Source: a virus. Taken from it: DNA of 33,655 nt. This document shows, piece by piece, positions 1,228-26,353 of the stretch (its first letter is position 1; each line of letters begins with the position of its first letter). Location: positions 1 through 33,655 of IMG/VR virus record IMGVR_UViG_3300037493_002968; one strand, given 5' to 3'. The notes under the pieces are model-generated. The model was given only the letters and a program-made list of their open reading frames with translations. It did not search any database and had not been told where the DNA came from. A program made the translations under genes and the position numbers.

Positions 1228-2001
1228 CTACCTAAAATTAGGTAAACAGATATTCAACTCATCAACACGGATTAAATCAGTTTGACCGTGGACAGTTTGA
1301 CAAGTCGTTTCGTTATTCCAGTTGTGATAAGCTGTAACGATTGAATCGACTTTTTCTTTATAGTTACGCAATGCACTTGAATTAATCAGCTTCATTCGTA
1401 TATCATCCCGAACGTAGGAATAATGGTGCATCTGAATTACTGATCTTGGAAATACCATAACCTTATTACTTGGTAACTTTCGTGTAGGATCGCAAAGCAC
1501 CGGATAATGTACAAACTCCTTAAATTTTCTTGTATCGGTTTTATCGGTCTTGTAAAATAATGGAACGTGGTATTCTTCAGGTTCCTTATACACCCAATCT
1601 TTATTACCAAAATACGTTTGCATCTGACAAGTTGAAGCATCGCAGTTGGACCGTTCAAAGTCAGACAAAGCCCGTTTGAATTCTGTTAGATTATACAACT
1701 CATCGCAATCCATTGTCATAAATAAATCACATCCGTTCTTTCGTGCTATCTCCAGCCCGATGTTACGCTTTGCAATTTCGTTGTAATGTGGAGTTTGGTA
1801 TGCTTCGGGAATGTACTCAACGATAAAGTGAAAGCCCAATCGATTTAATAAAGAATGAGTGTCTTGTTCAATCAAGTTCCCATAGTTACTGACCGTTTGA
1901 TAAACACCAATTAATATGTCTGTAACTGGTCGAATATTGTTTACCGATGCTTCAAGGTTTTCAACACCATCAAAGATGTTATAGGCTACAGCTAATTTCA
2001 T
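1228..2001 (-). CDS. Glycosyltransferase, GT2-like (GT-A fold)
   Basis: A 257-residue predicted sugar transferase, probably cytoplasmic (no signal peptide or membrane segment). A GT-A-like start (LAVAYNIFDGVENLEASV) is followed by NEIAKRNIGLEIARKNGCD and the metal-binding DxD-type motif MDCDE at 97-101, the layout of GT2 enzymes acting on nucleotide sugars. Two nearby His (MHHYSYVRDD) recall GT2 families annotated in phages. Its ATG overlaps the stop of the oxygenase gene as ATGA, so the two are translationally coupled. It is the last gene of the accessory cassette. Acceptor and donor cannot be told from sequence. Confidence 0.75.
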   Translation of the reverse strand: MKLAVAYNIFDGVENLEASVNNIRPVTDILIGVYQTVSNYGNLIEQDTHSLLNRLGFHFIVEYIPEAYQTPHYNEIAKRNIGLEIARKNGCDLFMTMDCDELYNLTEFKRALSDFERSNCDASTCQMQTYFGNKDWVYKEPEEYHVPLFYKTDKTDTRKFKEFVHYPVLCDPTRKLPSNKVMVFPRSVIQMHHYSYVRDDIRMKLINSSALRNYKEKVDSIVTAYHNWNNETTCQTVHGQTDLIRVDELNICLPNFR

Positions 2002-2678
2002 CGGAATATGGTATCATTGGCTTTCCAATCAAATTCGGGAGCGGTGTAATAATAAAGTGCAATTGATTTTCTGCTTTTGTCTTTTGGACAAGTTAACGGT
2101 TCGGGATGACCGTGCCAAGACTTATTGGTAGTGCTAAAAATTACAATATTACCTAACTCAGGAACTACACAAACCTTTTCATTTAGGACCGTATCGTATA
2201 ACTTAATTCCACCGCCCCATTCAGGTTGCCAATCTTCGTTAAGGTAAATCAATACGTTAACCCTACGATCAGCACCCCACAAACCGTGCTTATTAAAATC
2301 TACGTGAATGCCTAACTTACCACCGGTCTTTATTTCGTGATAGCCACCACCAATTAAGTAAGGATCAGACATAAGATTTTCAATGCCTGTTAAAGCTGAC
2401 AACCATTTTAAGAACGGTTCAGAATTGCAGAATCTTACTAAAGTCTTTGCACTATCAGAAAGTTTTGATTCGCCAAAAGTAACGTGCTTCTTTTCGTGAT
2501 GGTTGTTAAAGATCCTATCTGCATTAATAGCTAAATCGGGAAACTCATTATTAACCTGAGTAAGAAATTCACGACTAAAAATATCTTTGAACGTAGCGTG
2601 TGCAAATGGTTTAGCATTTAGATAAGCTGCTTGGTCAACGCTGGGAAAACTGAATATCGAATTGTCTGATAAGTTCAT
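1998..2678 (-). CDS. 2-oxoglutarate/Fe(II)-dependent oxygenase, prolyl 4-hydroxylase type
   Basis: A 226-residue hydroxylase candidate. The iron-binding triad is visible as His125-x-Asp127 (GIHVDFN) and His189 (SWHGHPEP), with Arg203 (SRKSIALYYY) placed to bind 2-oxoglutarate. The segment GYHEIKTGGKLGIHVDFNK is typical of the 2OG-FeII_Oxy_3 family, which includes protein prolyl hydroxylases and small-molecule hydroxylases. It is not like the TET/JBP DNA oxidases. It sits between two GT2-like genes and overlaps both, so the product probably creates or modifies the hydroxyl group, or the sugar, that the transferases handle. The target is unknown. The start ATG at 2676-2678 overlaps the previous gene by 44 nt. 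Confidence 0.88.
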   Translation of the reverse strand: MNLSDNSIFSFPSVDQAAYLNAKPFAHATFKDIFSREFLTQVNNEFPDLAINADRIFNNHHEKKHVTFGESKLSDSAKTLVRFCNSEPFLKWLSALTGIENLMSDPYLIGGGYHEIKTGGKLGIHVDFNKHGLWGADRRVNVLIYLNEDWQPEWGGGIKLYDTVLNEKVCVVPELGNIVIFSTTNKSWHGHPEPLTCPKDKSRKSIALYYYTAPEFDWKANDTIFR

Positions 2679-3312
2679 CGTATGTTGGTCTAAGTCCTTC
2701 TGTTAATTGGTGATGGTTAGTAATTAAATTATGTGATTTAGATTCAAGGTGGATGCAGTGAGCATCTGCAATTAAAGCGTGTTTAAAATTGTTAGCCTTA
2801 ATAACGTGAGCATAAAAGTTATCTTGAAACCAAAATGGTAGTTCATCCGGAAATAATGTATCTATTCCACATTCGTACATTAAGAATCGACTAAACATTA
2901 ATGCCCATCCACAAACTTGATAAGATGTTCGGTAACCGAATGTAATACCCTTATAAAATTCGTGAAGTGACAATGTAGGATCTTTTGGGCTGCAACTATC
3001 TAAGCCAGTATCAACTAATTTGTCTATGCAATTTTCACCAAGCAAAACATCGTTATTAAGAATTAAAAAGTAATCGTATGTGTAAGGATCTGCAAGTAAA
3101 AATCTTATCCCGTGCTTTAAATTTCGGTTGTAGTTAAATGCACCTTCCTGATAAATAGTTCTTGCTTTACTATATGGATGGTTGCTATGCGAATCAACAA
3201 CAACTGTACTAATTGCGTGGTGCTTAGACTTAATTGAATCAATTGCAGATTGAGTTATTTCAATTCGCTCCTGATCTACCGATGCAGCTAATATTACAAT
3301 TCCAATTTTCAC
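2635..3312 (-). CDS. Glycosyltransferase family 2-like
   Basis: A 225-residue GT-A protein. It begins with a beta strand (IGIVILAAS) and has TVVVDSHS at the first nucleotide-binding loop, FNYNRNLKHGIRFLL (the GT2 helix usually written as xNxGI) and LNNDV at 85-89 as the DxD-equivalent. This order is characteristic of GT2 rhamnosyl/glycosyl transferases. The start codon is GTG (3310-3312) in a GTGA overlap with the upstream stop; the strand-forming N-terminus begins exactly here, so no later Met is preferred. No membrane anchor is visible. Confidence 0.82.
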   Translation of the reverse strand: MKIGIVILAASVDQERIEITQSAIDSIKSKHHAISTVVVDSHSNHPYSKARTIYQEGAFNYNRNLKHGIRFLLADPYTYDYFLILNNDVLLGENCIDKLVDTGLDSCSPKDPTLSLHEFYKGITFGYRTSYQVCGWALMFSRFLMYECGIDTLFPDELPFWFQDNFYAHVIKANNFKHALIADAHCIHLESKSHNLITNHHQLTEGLRPTYDELIRQFDIQFSQR

Positions 3313-3671
3313 GCTTCTCTAAATGCTTTAACAATGTTTAAAATAGTTTGATCCGGCACGCTATCAACAAGCAAGGTTAAAAACTTTGGTTGATAGGTTT
3401 GAATTAAGATTTCATCTTGGTCAGAAAATATGTCTGAAAATATGCATAACAAACCGCTTACAAGCATTGAATCAGAATAAGTAATGAACTCACCACCCTG
3501 ATAAAGCACATACGCATTGTTACTACAGCGTTGAATCTTTTTGCCATACAGCATAGCCGATTCAAAATTAATTGCCTGAGCGCATACGAATTGAATTCTA
3601 TCGTCCCAATCTTTTAACTTACAAAGATCGTTGTAATATCTTTGGTCTATTGTCGTAATGTCTTGTACCAT
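3309..3671 (-). CDS. Unknown protein of the glycosyltransferase cassette
   Basis: A 120-residue protein I do not recognise. It has an acidic, aromatic N-terminus, two Cys in the middle (VCAQ, QRCSNN) and a hydrophobic stretch around residues 68-82 (SMLVSGLLCIFSDIF) that is too polar at its ends to be a clear membrane helix. Its gene overlaps both neighbouring transferase genes (25 nt and 4 nt), so it is made together with them. It could be a partner or acceptor-binding subunit, but that is a guess from position. Confidence 0.6.
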   Translation of the reverse strand: MVQDITTIDQRYYNDLCKLKDWDDRIQFVCAQAINFESAMLYGKKIQRCSNNAYVLYQGGEFITYSDSMLVSGLLCIFSDIFSDQDEILIQTYQPKFLTLLVDSVPDQTILNIVKAFREA

Positions 3672-4285
3672 TGCAAATCGTCTTTAATGTGTTTGCGTAA
3701 TTCTGCGTGGTTAGGATCGTTTACATATTTACCAAATGATCTGTTATGACCAACGCCACCACATAAGCCAATACCGTGTTTAATACCCACTGAATAAAAC
3801 TTATTTGGTTCTACAGTTTTGCCTTTAATAGATGACCATAAATGCATATCTAACCAAATCTCGGTATCAGCACACCATTCATAATTTTTTAAACCATCAG
3901 GTGTTAACAATGTACTCATTAAACTTGCCCGTCCTGAATGTGGGCTAAACCATTGCTTTTGAGCGAAGATGTGACAATACAAAGTAAAACCGATTCCAAA
4001 TATCTTAGGCTTACCATTTTGCTTCCAAGCGTTTACCATAAACTCGATGTACTTTGGATCGTACCAATCATCATCTTCCATTATCAGAATGCAAGTAGCA
4101 CCAGCTTCAATTGCTCGTTCACATCCTACACGAACACGGTAAGTTAAATCGGGTTTAATGTTAGTCGGTTCGTCAATGATTAGCCAAAGATCAGGCTGCA
4201 TCGTTTGTCTTGACATATAATACCTCAACCTATCTAACAACTGCTTTCGTGCCGGATCGTGATGTGGTGTAATAACTGCTATCAT
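3647..4285 (-). CDS. Glycosyltransferase, GT2-like with EDDDW motif
   Basis: A 212-residue predicted GT-A transferase. It opens with IAVITPHHDPAR, has a basic helix with YYMSRQTMQ and a strand LWLIIDEP, and carries MEDDDWYDP at 69-77, the DxD motif expected to hold the metal and nucleotide sugar. The C-terminal half has Cys-, His- and Gly-rich loops (GIGLCGGVGHNR). It lacks membrane segments. The gene overlaps its upstream neighbour as ATGA and the downstream unknown gene by 25 nt. It is clearly different in sequence from the other two transferases, so the three may add different sugars in sequence. Confidence 0.78.
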   Translation of the reverse strand: MIAVITPHHDPARKQLLDRLRYYMSRQTMQPDLWLIIDEPTNIKPDLTYRVRVGCERAIEAGATCILIMEDDDWYDPKYIEFMVNAWKQNGKPKIFGIGFTLYCHIFAQKQWFSPHSGRASLMSTLLTPDGLKNYEWCADTEIWLDMHLWSSIKGKTVEPNKFYSVGIKHGIGLCGGVGHNRSFGKYVNDPNHAELRKHIKDDLQWYKTLRQ

Positions 4286-21586: not shown

Positions 21587-22069
21587 CTATCTTCTTTTCT
21601 TATCTCGGTAGTATATCGCAAATCCAATTAAACTAATCAAGCCAATGGATCCAAGCGTAGATAAGATCATATCCCAACCGGTATAACACACTTCAGGACT
21701 TGGTAAGGTTTGGACCGTAGTAACAACCTTATGAGATTCGTTCCAGCTTAACGCAACTGAAGCGGAATCAATAACGCAATCTGCTTTGATAGTGTTTGGA
21801 TCAATTAGCTTCGTTTCAAGCCGTCCCTTTTTGCCCGACTTAGATTTAGTCGTTACGGTTGGTTTCGCACCATCAGGACATTCAATGCGTATGTACTCGG
21901 TAATGGTTTCACCTGGCAATACAATGATCGAATCTTTTTGTACAATGCTATCCCGAACAATCGTTTCTGTTTTGGTCGGGCAATTTTGACAAATCTTCAA
22001 TCGCTTCTTTTCGGTGACACACGAACCGAGCAAAGTCAGGACCAATAATGTTGATAGTGTAGTTTTCAT
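21587..22069 (-). CDS. u-spanin candidate (lipoprotein plus C-terminal membrane segment)
   Basis: A 160-residue protein with a lipoprotein signal peptide (MKTTLSTLLVLTLLGSC, lipobox LLGSC, Cys17) and a single membrane helix at 134-153 followed by a basic cytosolic end (YYRDKKRR). Being anchored in both outer and inner membranes is the unimolecular spanin (u-spanin) layout, as in phage T1 gp11, which fuses the two membranes in the last step of lysis. The middle is Thr/Lys-rich and has four other Cys. It lies apart from the endolysin (4 kb away) but on the same strand, and just before a terminator. The architecture is seen directly. The function is inferred. Confidence 0.7.
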   Translation of the reverse strand: MKTTLSTLLVLTLLGSCVTEKKRLKICQNCPTKTETIVRDSIVQKDSIIVLPGETITEYIRIECPDGAKPTVTTKSKSGKKGRLETKLIDPNTIKADCVIDSASVALSWNESHKVVTTVQTLPSPEVCYTGWDMILSTLGSIGLISLIGFAIYYRDKKRR

Positions 22070-23793: not shown

Positions 23794-24369
23794 TTAAGTA
23801 TTAATACTCATATCGCCCCGATCAATTGCTTTTTTAAATACTTCATCCAACTGGGCTGTAGATTCGTTAAGCATTCGTAAAAGATTAGAATATTCAACCC
23901 AATCTGTATCTTTATCGACTTGCTGAAGTAAAGCGTTCAACCCGACAATAGATCGTAACGGCTGTCTAAATTCGTGTGCAATGATCGACTTAATATCTTC
24001 AAGTTGCTTCTTTAGCTTTTCGTATTGGTGTGCGGTGGAACTTACAACATCAAATAAAAGCTGTCCAATTAAATAATATTCACCAGCTAAAAAGCAAACT
24101 TCCCAAATTACCCATCGATGCACACCGTTACGTTGGATGGTTCGGCAGTTAAATACCTTTGATTGGTTGTGATATATATCCGCCCATTTAAAACTACTTT
24201 CAACTTCTTCAATATCTTCAAGATCAGATACTAAATGTTTAAAATTAGTTGGCTTAATGTGTGCAAAAGTTGATCTGAATAATTCATTTCTATACGTAAT
24301 CTGTCCTTTTTTATCGCACTTAGCGTAAAGACAGGATGCAGAATTATCTAACAGAAACAATACAGACAC
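23794..24369 (-). CDS. PAS-DHp protein: histidine kinase-like without ATPase domain
   Basis: A 191-residue protein. Residues about 5-107 have the PAS pattern (SASCLYAKCDKKGQITYRNE, a loop region, RTIQRNGVHRWVIWE, EYYLIGQLLFDV), and 115-185 form the dimerisation/phosphoacceptor helices (HQYEKLKKQLEDIKSIIAHE, then FRQPLRSIVGLNALLQQ). The H-box is AHEFRQPLRSI with His132. There is no HATPase_c domain (no N box, DxGxG or GxGLG), and after the stop I found no remnant of one. It cannot phosphorylate itself but could take phosphate from, or form mixed dimers with, a host kinase. The start is GTG (24367-24369); no ATG is available before residue 166. Confidence 0.75.
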   Translation of the reverse strand: MSVLFLLDNSASCLYAKCDKKGQITYRNELFRSTFAHIKPTNFKHLVSDLEDIEEVESSFKWADIYHNQSKVFNCRTIQRNGVHRWVIWEVCFLAGEYYLIGQLLFDVVSSTAHQYEKLKKQLEDIKSIIAHEFRQPLRSIVGLNALLQQVDKDTDWVEYSNLLRMLNESTAQLDEVFKKAIDRGDMSINT

Positions 24370-24403: not shown

Positions 24404-24898
24404 TTAAGCGTTTAAAACGGCTTTCAGTTTACTGCCAAACTCAACCCAAGACTTAAACGAGTTAATTGCATACAAAGTAACTACAATAGCCACAATTGGA
24501 ATTAAAGCAGCATCAAACATTACGCTTGAATCAATCTTAGTCGGAAATGATTGAACTGTTTGCGGTAATTCAATAAACTCTGAAGCTGATCGAGTGTCAC
24601 CAATGGGTGCAATGTTGCAAGGTCTAATAGTGTCGTGTGCTTCCATTGATCGTTTTACATTGTGCAATTTCACATTAAAGTTAAGCGATTCAATCGATGG
24701 GTAATAATCGTGATTGTAAAATGTGTCTCCACGTTCTGTTACATAGACTTTGGTTACCATTCCGTGATTAACGGTGAAGTAAGACTTGTAATCTTTGCCA
24801 ATTGCAACAACACGAAAATAAGACACGGTGTCTGTATCTGATACCGTTCTATGTACAAGCGTATCGTACCGAATTACATTATCTTGCAGCATCATCAT
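24404..24898 (-). CDS. Membrane protein with C-terminal anchor, lysis-region
   Basis: A 164-residue protein with a long hydrophilic N-terminal part (residues 1-128) and one membrane helix near 129-147 (DAALIPIVAIVVTLYAIN), ending in a basic SWVEFGSKLKAVLNA-like tail. No signal peptide. It follows the holin candidate with an overlap of 20 nt. It could be an i-spanin-like or antiholin-like factor, though coiled coil is not evident. Three ATG codons in a row start the frame; I use the first. Confidence 0.55.
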   Translation of the reverse strand: MMMLQDNVIRYDTLVHRTVSDTDTVSYFRVVAIGKDYKSYFTVNHGMVTKVYVTERGDTFYNHDYYPSIESLNFNVKLHNVKRSMEAHDTIRPCNIAPIGDTRSASEFIELPQTVQSFPTKIDSSVMFDAALIPIVAIVVTLYAINSFKSWVEFGSKLKAVLNA

Positions 24899-25097
24899 CG
24901 TTCGTTTTTTTATTGTCCTTGAATTTCGGAATAAACCCGATTGCTACCATTGCACTAATATACTTCCAAAACGTGCTTTCATCAATTTGGTTTGTCATCA
25001 ACAAGATCAATGCAGTTAGACCAAGTAAAGCACCGATGGTCCTTGCCCAATAATCAAGTATAAGGTCAAGGATAGCACGAATCTTTCGGAAGTTCAT
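24879..25097 (-). CDS. Holin candidate
   Basis: A 72-residue protein with two hydrophobic segments (TIGALLGLTALILLM and YISAMVAIGFIP), an N-terminal amphipathic part (RKIRAILDLILDYW) and a charged C-terminus rich in Lys and Asp (FKDNKKTNDDDAAR). Two short membrane segments, a charged tail and a position near the amidase are typical of phage holins, which open the inner membrane for the endolysin. I use the ATG at 25095-25097 instead of the upstream TTG at 25115. The gene follows the secreted protein gene by 1 nt. Confidence 0.65.
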   Translation of the reverse strand: MNFRKIRAILDLILDYWARTIGALLGLTALILLMTNQIDESTFWKYISAMVAIGFIPKFKDNKKTNDDDAAR

Positions 25098-25098
25098 A

Positions 25099-25860
25099 TC
25101 AATTTGGTTGTACAATGTAAATGTAATTTGAATTGGTTACAGATCTGCCGAGAATGTCAAACCCTTGATTGCTTCTTACAATGTCCGGAACGATTAATAC
25201 AATGGGATCACTAACATTTGTCCGACCTTCATAATCAACTTCCCGAACTGCTAAGTATTGAAGCCCACCAATAGTGTACGGTATTGATAGGTTATAGTCT
25301 GTTAGGTCGCTTGAATTAACTTGGTTAGGTTGTAACTCATAAATCGTTCGCCAATTGATTAAATCGCTTGAAATAATGATTTCATATTTTAACGTGCCGG
25401 TATTAGAACAAGTTGCAAAATGAAGCCTAATAAAGTTTTGTTCGTATTCTGCTTGAACTCCGCAAAACTCAACTGAAAGCCCAGGTGATAGAATCGCATA
25501 CGGGCAAAAGTTGTCGATCAATGCAGCTTGGATAGTATAACAAACCGTTACCGTATCTGTGGATGGGTAAATCATCGGACTTGCCTCTAATAATTCGCAG
25601 TATTGATTGTATTGATTTATTGCCGTTACAAATGCTGGTTGACCACTTGGGGATGAATAACTAAATCCGGCTACTTGACCGACCGTCTGTGGTGGAAACT
25701 TAACGCAAATAGTAGTGTCACCCATATTACCTTCAACACATTGACCGCTGAAGTATAAACTGAAGAAACTCGGTAGACCTAAATAAGCACGACCGTTCCT
25801 ATTTGTTTCGCATTGTGCGGATCCTATAAATGGCAACAACAATAAAAGTAAAAAACGCAT
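25099..25860 (-). CDS. Secreted protein with type IX secretion (T9SS) cargo-like C-terminus
   Basis: A 253-residue protein with a classic signal peptide (MRFLLLLLLPFIGSAQ), eight Cys in the middle, and a C-terminal region whose pattern (YEIIISSDLINWRTIYEL, LQYLAVREVDYEGRTNVSDP, GFDILGRSVTNSNYIYIV) follows the FN3-like plus CTD architecture of Bacteroidota T9SS cargo, where YYRLkqvDxDGxxxYS precedes a short domain ending in a xlGxxVxxxxxxxY motif. This suggests host-surface or extracellular delivery by the host T9SS. Phage carriage of such a module is unusual. Alternatives are a periplasmic protein or a virion part. The CTD is short compared with the usual 70-80 residues. Confidence 0.6.
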   Translation of the reverse strand: MRFLLLLLLPFIGSAQCETNRNGRAYLGLPSFFSLYFSGQCVEGNMGDTTICVKFPPQTVGQVAGFSYSSPSGQPAFVTAINQYNQYCELLEASPMIYPSTDTVTVCYTIQAALIDNFCPYAILSPGLSVEFCGVQAEYEQNFIRLHFATCSNTGTLKYEIIISSDLINWRTIYELQPNQVNSSDLTDYNLSIPYTIGGLQYLAVREVDYEGRTNVSDPIVLIVPDIVRSNQGFDILGRSVTNSNYIYIVQPN

Positions 25861-25945: not shown

Positions 25946-26353
25946 TTAAATGTCTTTGTATTCAGTTTTTGCATCGAATGACGGACAGGCTTTAGAAACT
26001 TTTGGAAAATCTCTATGACCTTGAATAATTGCATCCGGATAAAGTCGCTTCCATTGGGTTAGTACTTGGAGCAATGCAGATTTTTGTGCATCGGTTCTAT
26101 TATCAATTGCTTTTGGACCATTAACACCACCAATGTAAGATACGTGCAAACTAACAGAATTATGACCAGCAACACCATTACAAACAGTTTCATCGGGTGC
26201 AAGTCGATTAATTTTACCGTTAGCTTCAATAATTTGGTGGTACCCTGGGCTTTTCCACTTTAGATTATTTCGCCAATAATTTTGAATAGACTGAATAGTT
26301 GTAGTCTGTGGTGTTGCTGTGCAATGAACTACAATGTATTTAATTGGTCGCAT
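25946..26353 (-). CDS. Endolysin, N-acetylmuramoyl-L-alanine amidase (T7 lysozyme-like)
   Basis: A 135-residue cell-wall amidase that cuts the bond between muramic acid and the stem peptide. The zinc ligands are His10 (VVHCT), His113 (GHRDF) and Cys123 (KACPSF), with Lys121 placed two residues before Cys as in T7 lysozyme (Lys128/Cys130), and Tyr38 (GYH) as the catalytic Tyr. There is no signal peptide, so release by a holin is expected. It lies between the micro-gene at 26356-26502 and the secreted protein gene. The ATG starts 3 bp after the preceding stop. Confidence 0.93.
   Translation of the reverse strand: MRPIKYIVVHCTATPQTTTIQSIQNYWRNNLKWKSPGYHQIIEANGKINRLAPDETVCNGVAGHNSVSLHVSYIGGVNGPKAIDNRTDAQKSALLQVLTQWKRLYPDAIIQGHRDFPKVSKACPSFDAKTEYKDI

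Follow-up and report, generated by a model that had tools for sequence, protein, structure and literature searches.

The gene at positions 25099-25860, minus strand, of the 33,655-base IMG/VR virus record analysed here (the window) raises the question of whether a phage encodes its own cargo for the type IX secretion system (T9SS) of its host and, if so, what such a protein would do beside the genes for lysis. A preliminary description had assigned the product, P0001, the architecture of T9SS cargo. That assignment stands in part: a Sec leader of the Q-rule type, an FN3 domain of T9SS-cargo type and a CTD-like tail are present, while the full sorting domain is absent and no T9SS profile matches.

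Architecture and family of P0001

P0001 is a secreted two-domain protein of 253 amino acids with an ATG start, the above coordinates including the stop codon. The ORF, for which no strand had been given, is confirmed as real by the ORF call and by relatives, and the features originally noted in it (a signal peptide, an FN3-like domain with VREVDYEGR, and FDILGRSV and YIYIV at the C-terminus) are all present. Across an alignment of 36 family members, sharing 38-85% identity with the window protein, the architecture is near-invariant: each member carries a leader closing in A/G|Q, a phage-specific N-terminal domain, an FN3 domain and a motif-bearing tail. Invariant residues include the Q16-C17 pair that follows the leader, a number of N-domain cysteines and, close to the C-terminus, D235, G238 and R239. 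As the leader with its Gln, the FN3 domain and the tail motif are retained in all 36, their association is not a matter of chance.

The signal peptide (residues 1-15, 25816-25860; this and all features below are on the minus strand) is a hydrophobic leader ending SA|Q, with Q16 as the predicted mature N-terminus. Among the Bacteroidetes, an N-terminal Gln after signal peptidase I cleavage is the rule (the Q-rule; PMC5837995), and a leader followed by Gln, called by eye and not with SignalP, is found in 36/36 members. The leader is followed by a predicted cysteine-rich beta domain (residues 16-125, 25486-25815). A search of 395 Bacteroidota genomes for this domain returned no believable relative, the two matches obtained being weak and broken by stops. 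The AF2 model, built on the 36 sequences with a mean pLDDT of 79.1, contains two beta-sandwich domains, the second of which is an FN3, in line with the FN3-like domain first noted. In fold comparison, the model as a whole resembled generic Ig/FN3 tandems.

Beyond its family, P0001 has few relatives. The cellular genomes searched held none that was close, the sole match among isolated phages was at chance level, and a second family member, used as query against isolated phages and plasmids, gave none. PHROGs yielded nothing, nor did a profile search of PDB sequences. The plasmid search did return matches to the FN3 part in Hymenobacter plasmids, and BFVD holds distant look-alikes, one of which (A0A6J5M2J1, E 1.4e-4) is named “Secretion system C-terminal sorting domain”. 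The window itself has no terminal repeats of 15 bases or more and no tRNA.

The FN3 domain and the known T9SS models

The FN3 domain (residues 126-224, 25189-25485), with VREVDYEGR at its end, was assigned to the T9SS-cargo type by HMM and profile comparison. The best fold matches to the second domain of the model are FN3 chains, with Z up to 11.3 and an rmsd of 2.1 over 84 aligned residues. By HMM, the C-terminal half of P0001 matches the FN3 of several proteins, among them one from Hymenobacter annotated as T9SS (E 3.7e-7), and the six best cellular matches (E<=1e-9), from five of 296 Bacteroidota genomes, cover the FN3 only and each continue into a CTD-like tail. When compared by hhalign with 11 host FN3-CTD sequences, the family gave a probability of 98.5% over the FN3. 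Judged by sequence, the domain is the FN3 type of host T9SS cargo.

The region that follows behaves differently towards the established models. A search with TIGR04183/TIGR04131-type profiles had been proposed as a check, with the reading to be abandoned should none match, and for the canonical domain this is the outcome: none of 18 family members matches any T9SS model of NCBIfam or Pfam at E<=10, and TIGR04183 has no match in 13 virus records. In four Bacteroidota genomes used as positive controls, TIGR04183 matches 88, 25, 73 and 10 times, and it also accepts host proteins and an FN3 protein from one huge phage. A full T9SS sorting domain (TIGR04183 / Por_Secre_tail) is thereby ruled out for P0001.

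A conserved motif on a short tail

Canonical T9SS CTDs are seven-stranded, Ig-like domains of 70-100 residues. The window tail comprises only 28-29 residues after the FN3, modelled as a hairpin at low confidence (46-63 by block), and the beta1-beta2/PNP part is absent. It consists of a linker (residues 225-233, 25162-25188), FDILGRSV (residues 234-241, 25138-25161), which corresponds to CTD motif B in the loop beta3-beta4 and is kept in 36/36, and TNSNYIYIVQPN (residues 242-253, 25102-25137), in which, by the alignments, a motif-D-like strand (YIYIV) is followed by the end of the protein, without motif E. The pattern [FY]D[ILM]xGRx[VI] plus 12-13 residues describes all 36 members.

In a joint alignment, FDILGRSV falls in register with host CTD motif B, and its Gly, present in every member of the family, occupies an invariant column. 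The remaining CTD motifs are reduced or missing. The motif-D glycine is absent, LxxGxY occurring in 0/36 members, and there is no last strand with the basic residue of motif E, as the family ends after the motif-D-like strand and the window protein ends QPN; a Lys or Arg is found somewhere in the last six residues of 26 members, outside any recognisable motif E.

Selection acts unevenly along the protein. Pooled over three clades, with pairs that are non-independent, the two domains have dN/dS values of 0.05-0.07 (N-domain) and 0.07-0.09 (FN3); in the tail, the values are 0.23-0.54 in the linker (residues 225-232), 0.04-0.17 in the motif and 0.12-0.27 at the end. The constraint on the motif next to a relaxed linker indicates that the tail is no decaying relic, and such a combination looks like a sorting or docking signal. 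It was also considered whether these phages use the tail as a modular tag on further proteins; this was rejected, as no other ORF among 2303 segments ends in this way.

A class of short tails in phages and Flavobacteriales

Viral contigs were scanned with FN3-based profiles, and tails were measured from the last FN3 onward. Beside the window family, 20 distinct phage FN3 proteins were recovered, the tail being short in 12 (38-50 aa, no PNP) and full-length in eight (78-94 aa), a sample biased to short tails by the confirming sequences, which were taken from short-tail phages; two L312 rows with tails of 3-4 aa and the duplicates L285, L295, L290, L296, L302 and L298 had been left out before the count. 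Among the secreted FN3 proteins of large and huge phages, some carry a full T9SS sorting domain and others a short tail (L250-L252, L284-L303, L183/L184 = LR756500, LR756504); with TIGR04183 the L183 protein scores 32.7 bits, which is over the cut-off.

All 71 of the cellular FN3-bearing proteins have tails of 60-120 aa and, among the matches listed in a phylum-wide search, alignments ended at position 39 of 67; a phage-only short tail was first concluded from this. That reading was overturned when 296 Flavobacteriales genomes, from the order of genome G013, were searched. Matches occurred in 51 of them, mostly of 0.8-2 Mb, and nearly all were to the short tail itself, which ends proteins unrelated to the FN3, among them one PHB-depolymerase-like and one plastocyanin-like. 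The 20 Flavobacteriales genomes selected for having a short tail each hold 11-42 of them at E<=1e-4, and four larger T9SS-positive genomes hold none at that threshold. SprA exceeds its cut-off in 19 of these 20, and all 20 also encode full CTDs (25-64 TIGR04183 matches each). The host short tail is about 40-45 aa long, with a consensus like KLIKIxDxLGREV..N..LFYIYDDGTVEKKIIIE (L345-L403; G414, G430, G440 and 17 other genomes). The start is complete in 47 of the short-tail host proteins, and in 34 of these a simple pattern recognises a Q-rule-like leader. When ten short-tail proteins (four host, six phage) were run against NCBIfam and Pfam, no sorting-tail model matched.

The window family was compared with this class by HMM. 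A model of 53 host short tails is mildly circular, since five of the 17 rows in the model that first detected these tails came from the window family. It places 36/36 family tails above the shuffle 99th percentile of 4.6, with a median of 9.8 bits and 10.4 for P0001; all 36 also outscore 99% of the 1307 other ORF tails. A model of the 12 phage short tails, found via FN3 but two of them first in a scan whose query alignment included window-family tails, places 30/36 above the corresponding percentile, and a full-CTD model 17%. On these scores the window tail resembles, and stands near, the Flavobacteriales short-tail class, the bearers of which need not be hosts of this phage.

The lysis cassette and the host

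Upstream of the P0001 gene lies an endolysin, an N-acetylmuramoyl-L-alanine amidase (25946-26353; Amidase_2, E 3e-14; phrog_822), and its end is overlapped by 17 bases by a gene for a holin-like small hydrophobic protein (24879-25115), which has no family match above cut-off and was assigned by hydrophobicity and place only. Further downstream are a 164-aa protein with one C-terminal hydrophobic segment, a conserved member of the cassette (24404-24898), and a protein of 191 aa in which a HisKA dimerisation/phospho-acceptor helix pair occurs without an ATPase domain (23794-24369; E 8.9e-5), the HisKA match of which scores 22.9 bits, under the cut-off of 26.9. The 164-aa protein contains a GDTRSASEF motif and one TM near its C-terminus, with no family match above cut-off. 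The conserved His of the HisKA-type protein lies in AHEFRQPL in the window and in SHELRQPL, SHKVRKPL and others in relatives; the protein may have a signalling or phosphotransfer function connected with lysis.

This neighbourhood was surveyed in 40 rows, namely 39 loci and the window. An endolysin of one of three types lies upstream in 37 of them (GH24 in 32, amidase in three, CHAP in two), and within 100 bp in 32. One further row has what we take, by eye from its motif, to be an M15-like lysin upstream, and two have no endolysin nearby. Downstream, where several loci end too soon to be judged, a holin-like gene is found in 24 rows, the single-TM protein in 22 and the HisKA-type protein in 32. 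The position beside lysis genes that had been described for the window is supported, with an endolysin directly upstream in most relatives and a holin-like gene downstream. The endolysin type is exchanged while P0001 stays, which ties the work of P0001 to lysis and not to one kind of lysin. A spanin role for P0001 is not favoured, as a spanin-like lipoprotein is encoded elsewhere in the window. This unimolecular-spanin-like ORF (21587-22069) has the lipoprotein leader LLGSC and a C-terminal TM followed by RDKKRR, and a similar ORF is present in 8 of 38 related loci. At 1228-4285 there is a run of ORFs that we take to be glycosyltransferase-like and oxygenase-like, and that possibly modify the virion or host surface.

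The protein had also been put forward as a marker of the host phylum, and a Bacteroidota host agrees with the genes for packaging. Relatives of the portal and terminase among named phages include many from phages of Bacteroides, Phocaeicola and Parabacteroides, and those of the terminase extend to phages of Flavobacterium and Polaribacter. When genome contigs were scanned with the terminase, nearly all among the 80 loci listed were titled Bacteroidota, the best being a Chitinophagaceae bin at 41%. Accordingly, the host is most likely a member of the Bacteroidota.

A proposed role and its alternatives

The explanation we favour, tentatively and at somewhat less than even confidence, is that P0001 is a late lysis-cassette protein derived from host T9SS cargo, the abridged, short-CTD-like sorting tail of which would bring it to the cell surface. 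Export by Sec and cleavage by signal peptidase I at A|Q would come first, a step for which the sequence evidence is strong. The protein would then be predicted to fold in the periplasm into two beta-sandwich domains, probably with disulfides. By analogy with host short CTDs, the motif B loop FDILGRSV, held on its flexible linker, may be recognised by PorV/T9SS and the protein delivered to the outer membrane or surface; in published modelling, motif B sits deepest in PorV (PMC11969387). At the surface, P0001 would act around lysis, most likely by covering receptors against superinfecting phage and against the binding of progeny to the dying cell or its debris. With motif B kept but motif E and the motif-D Gly absent, surface export by the T9SS is plausible yet unproven. 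The favoured reading is therefore that the tail works like a short CTD, and it is not claimed to be a T9SS sorting domain.

A wider form of this proposal, which we consider doubtful, is that Bacteroidota phages and small-genome Flavobacteriales share a so far unrecognised class of very short T9SS tag, composed of motif B and one or two strands, and that phages attach it to a lysis-cassette protein so that the host T9SS plates the surface before lysis and shields the receptors.

P0001 may instead be a periplasmic regulator of lysis, controlling the holin or endolysin, with the tail as a binding hairpin for a partner in the cassette. Periplasmic control of lysis is known from T4 RI, and the constant leader, the overlap with the holin-like gene, the retention of P0001 beside amidase, GH24, CHAP or M15-like endolysins and the missing motif E would all suit such a role. 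However, it leaves unexplained why an FN3 of T9SS-cargo type should be followed by an in-register CTD motif B, and why the family tails match host short tails, and the holin-like protein offers little in the periplasm to be bound. A regulator is, on balance, rather unlikely.

The loss of motif E could also be read as the point of the tail. P0001 would then be a decoy that binds PorV through motif B and, unreleased without motif E, clogs the T9SS and blocks the delivery of receptor proteins. The motif that enters PorV (PMC11969387) is indeed retained and the one that completes export lost, but PorV binding is itself putative and late expression would leave little time for a block to matter, making a decoy improbable. 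Much the same low probability attaches to the absence of any T9SS link, with the tail likeness due to chance or convergence and the FN3 merely common to both groups. The failure of every T9SS family model would be expected in that case, yet, of 23 host CTDs scored with an HMM of the family tails, 48% exceed 2 bits, a level reached by 1.5% of 920 shuffles and by 1.2% of the 1307 other ORF tails, and the family tails also beat the controls with both the host and the phage short-tail models. Lastly, Ig/FN3-like domains are common on phage particles and the two beta-sandwich domains would fit a virion adhesin or decoration protein, but a cleavable Sec leader in 36/36 members and a place in the lysis cassette sit badly with a virion assembled in the cytoplasm, and this role is improbable too.

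Comparison with known systems

Should P0001 reach the surface as we favour, its possible job of keeping receptors off phage would be shared with the receptor-blocking Llp of phage T5, which, unlike P0001, is a lipoprotein. Phage-borne T9SS cargo is already published (PMC7468147, PMC6949934). Like P0001, the cryophage genes encode a protein of T9SS-cargo type, for which their authors suggested superinfection exclusion; these genes have an annotated T9SS type A sorting domain and vary between phage variants (PMC7468147), whereas the P0001 gene is a conserved part of the lysis cassette, and its abridged tail is missed by every T9SS model. Cluster 2 of the crAss-BACON gut phages likewise places T9SS-type tails in phages of Bacteroidota, but near head genes and with the sorting domain annotated (PMC6949934). 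Proteins of Porphyromonas gingivalis phages share with P0001 a leader exposing an N-terminal Gln under the Q-rule, and, unlike P0001, are described in the available text of that report with no mention of a T9SS feature (PMC10367356). Short tails on phage proteins appear to be new: no report of short CTDs in phages or Flavobacteriales was found in the literature, which is weak evidence of absence as subscription papers were mostly outside the coverage.

A functional tail of this kind would lower the minimum size of a T9SS signal and open a lysis-linked phage route to the host surface. Against this stand data from P. gingivalis, in which export requires the C-terminal strand with its Lys, while for HBP35 the terminal 22 aa (motifs D and E) are sufficient (PMC10202324, PMC11285876). 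Disruption of motif B by G699R blocks secretion of RgpB (PMC11285876). A close parallel is Prevotella intermedia, where 48 of the predicted CTDs are short (43-55 aa) and 32 are long, and where five short cleavage sites were mapped (PMC11969387). Its short CTDs are proven T9SS signals. In their motif B the Gly is invariant, the Tyr is strong and a basic residue is present; motif E has an invariant basic residue, and 1-6 aa separate motifs B and D (PMC11969387). The species is printed there (PMC11969387) as the sole one in the phylum reported with both long and short CTDs, a status that would need revision if the short tails of the Flavobacteriales are sorting tags, in which case cargo counts in the organisms that have them would also be too low.

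Compared with these proven tails, that of the window is a putative signal. It is shorter, at about 28 aa counted from the FN3 against 43-55 aa counted from the cleavage site, and it is without the GxY of motif D and without a clear motif E with its basic residue. The window tail nonetheless agrees with the P. intermedia short CTDs in a motif B with Gly, an aromatic and a basic residue (FD..GR), in a flexible linker after a folded domain, and in the spacing of motifs B and D, with about four residues between FDILGRSV and YIYIV.
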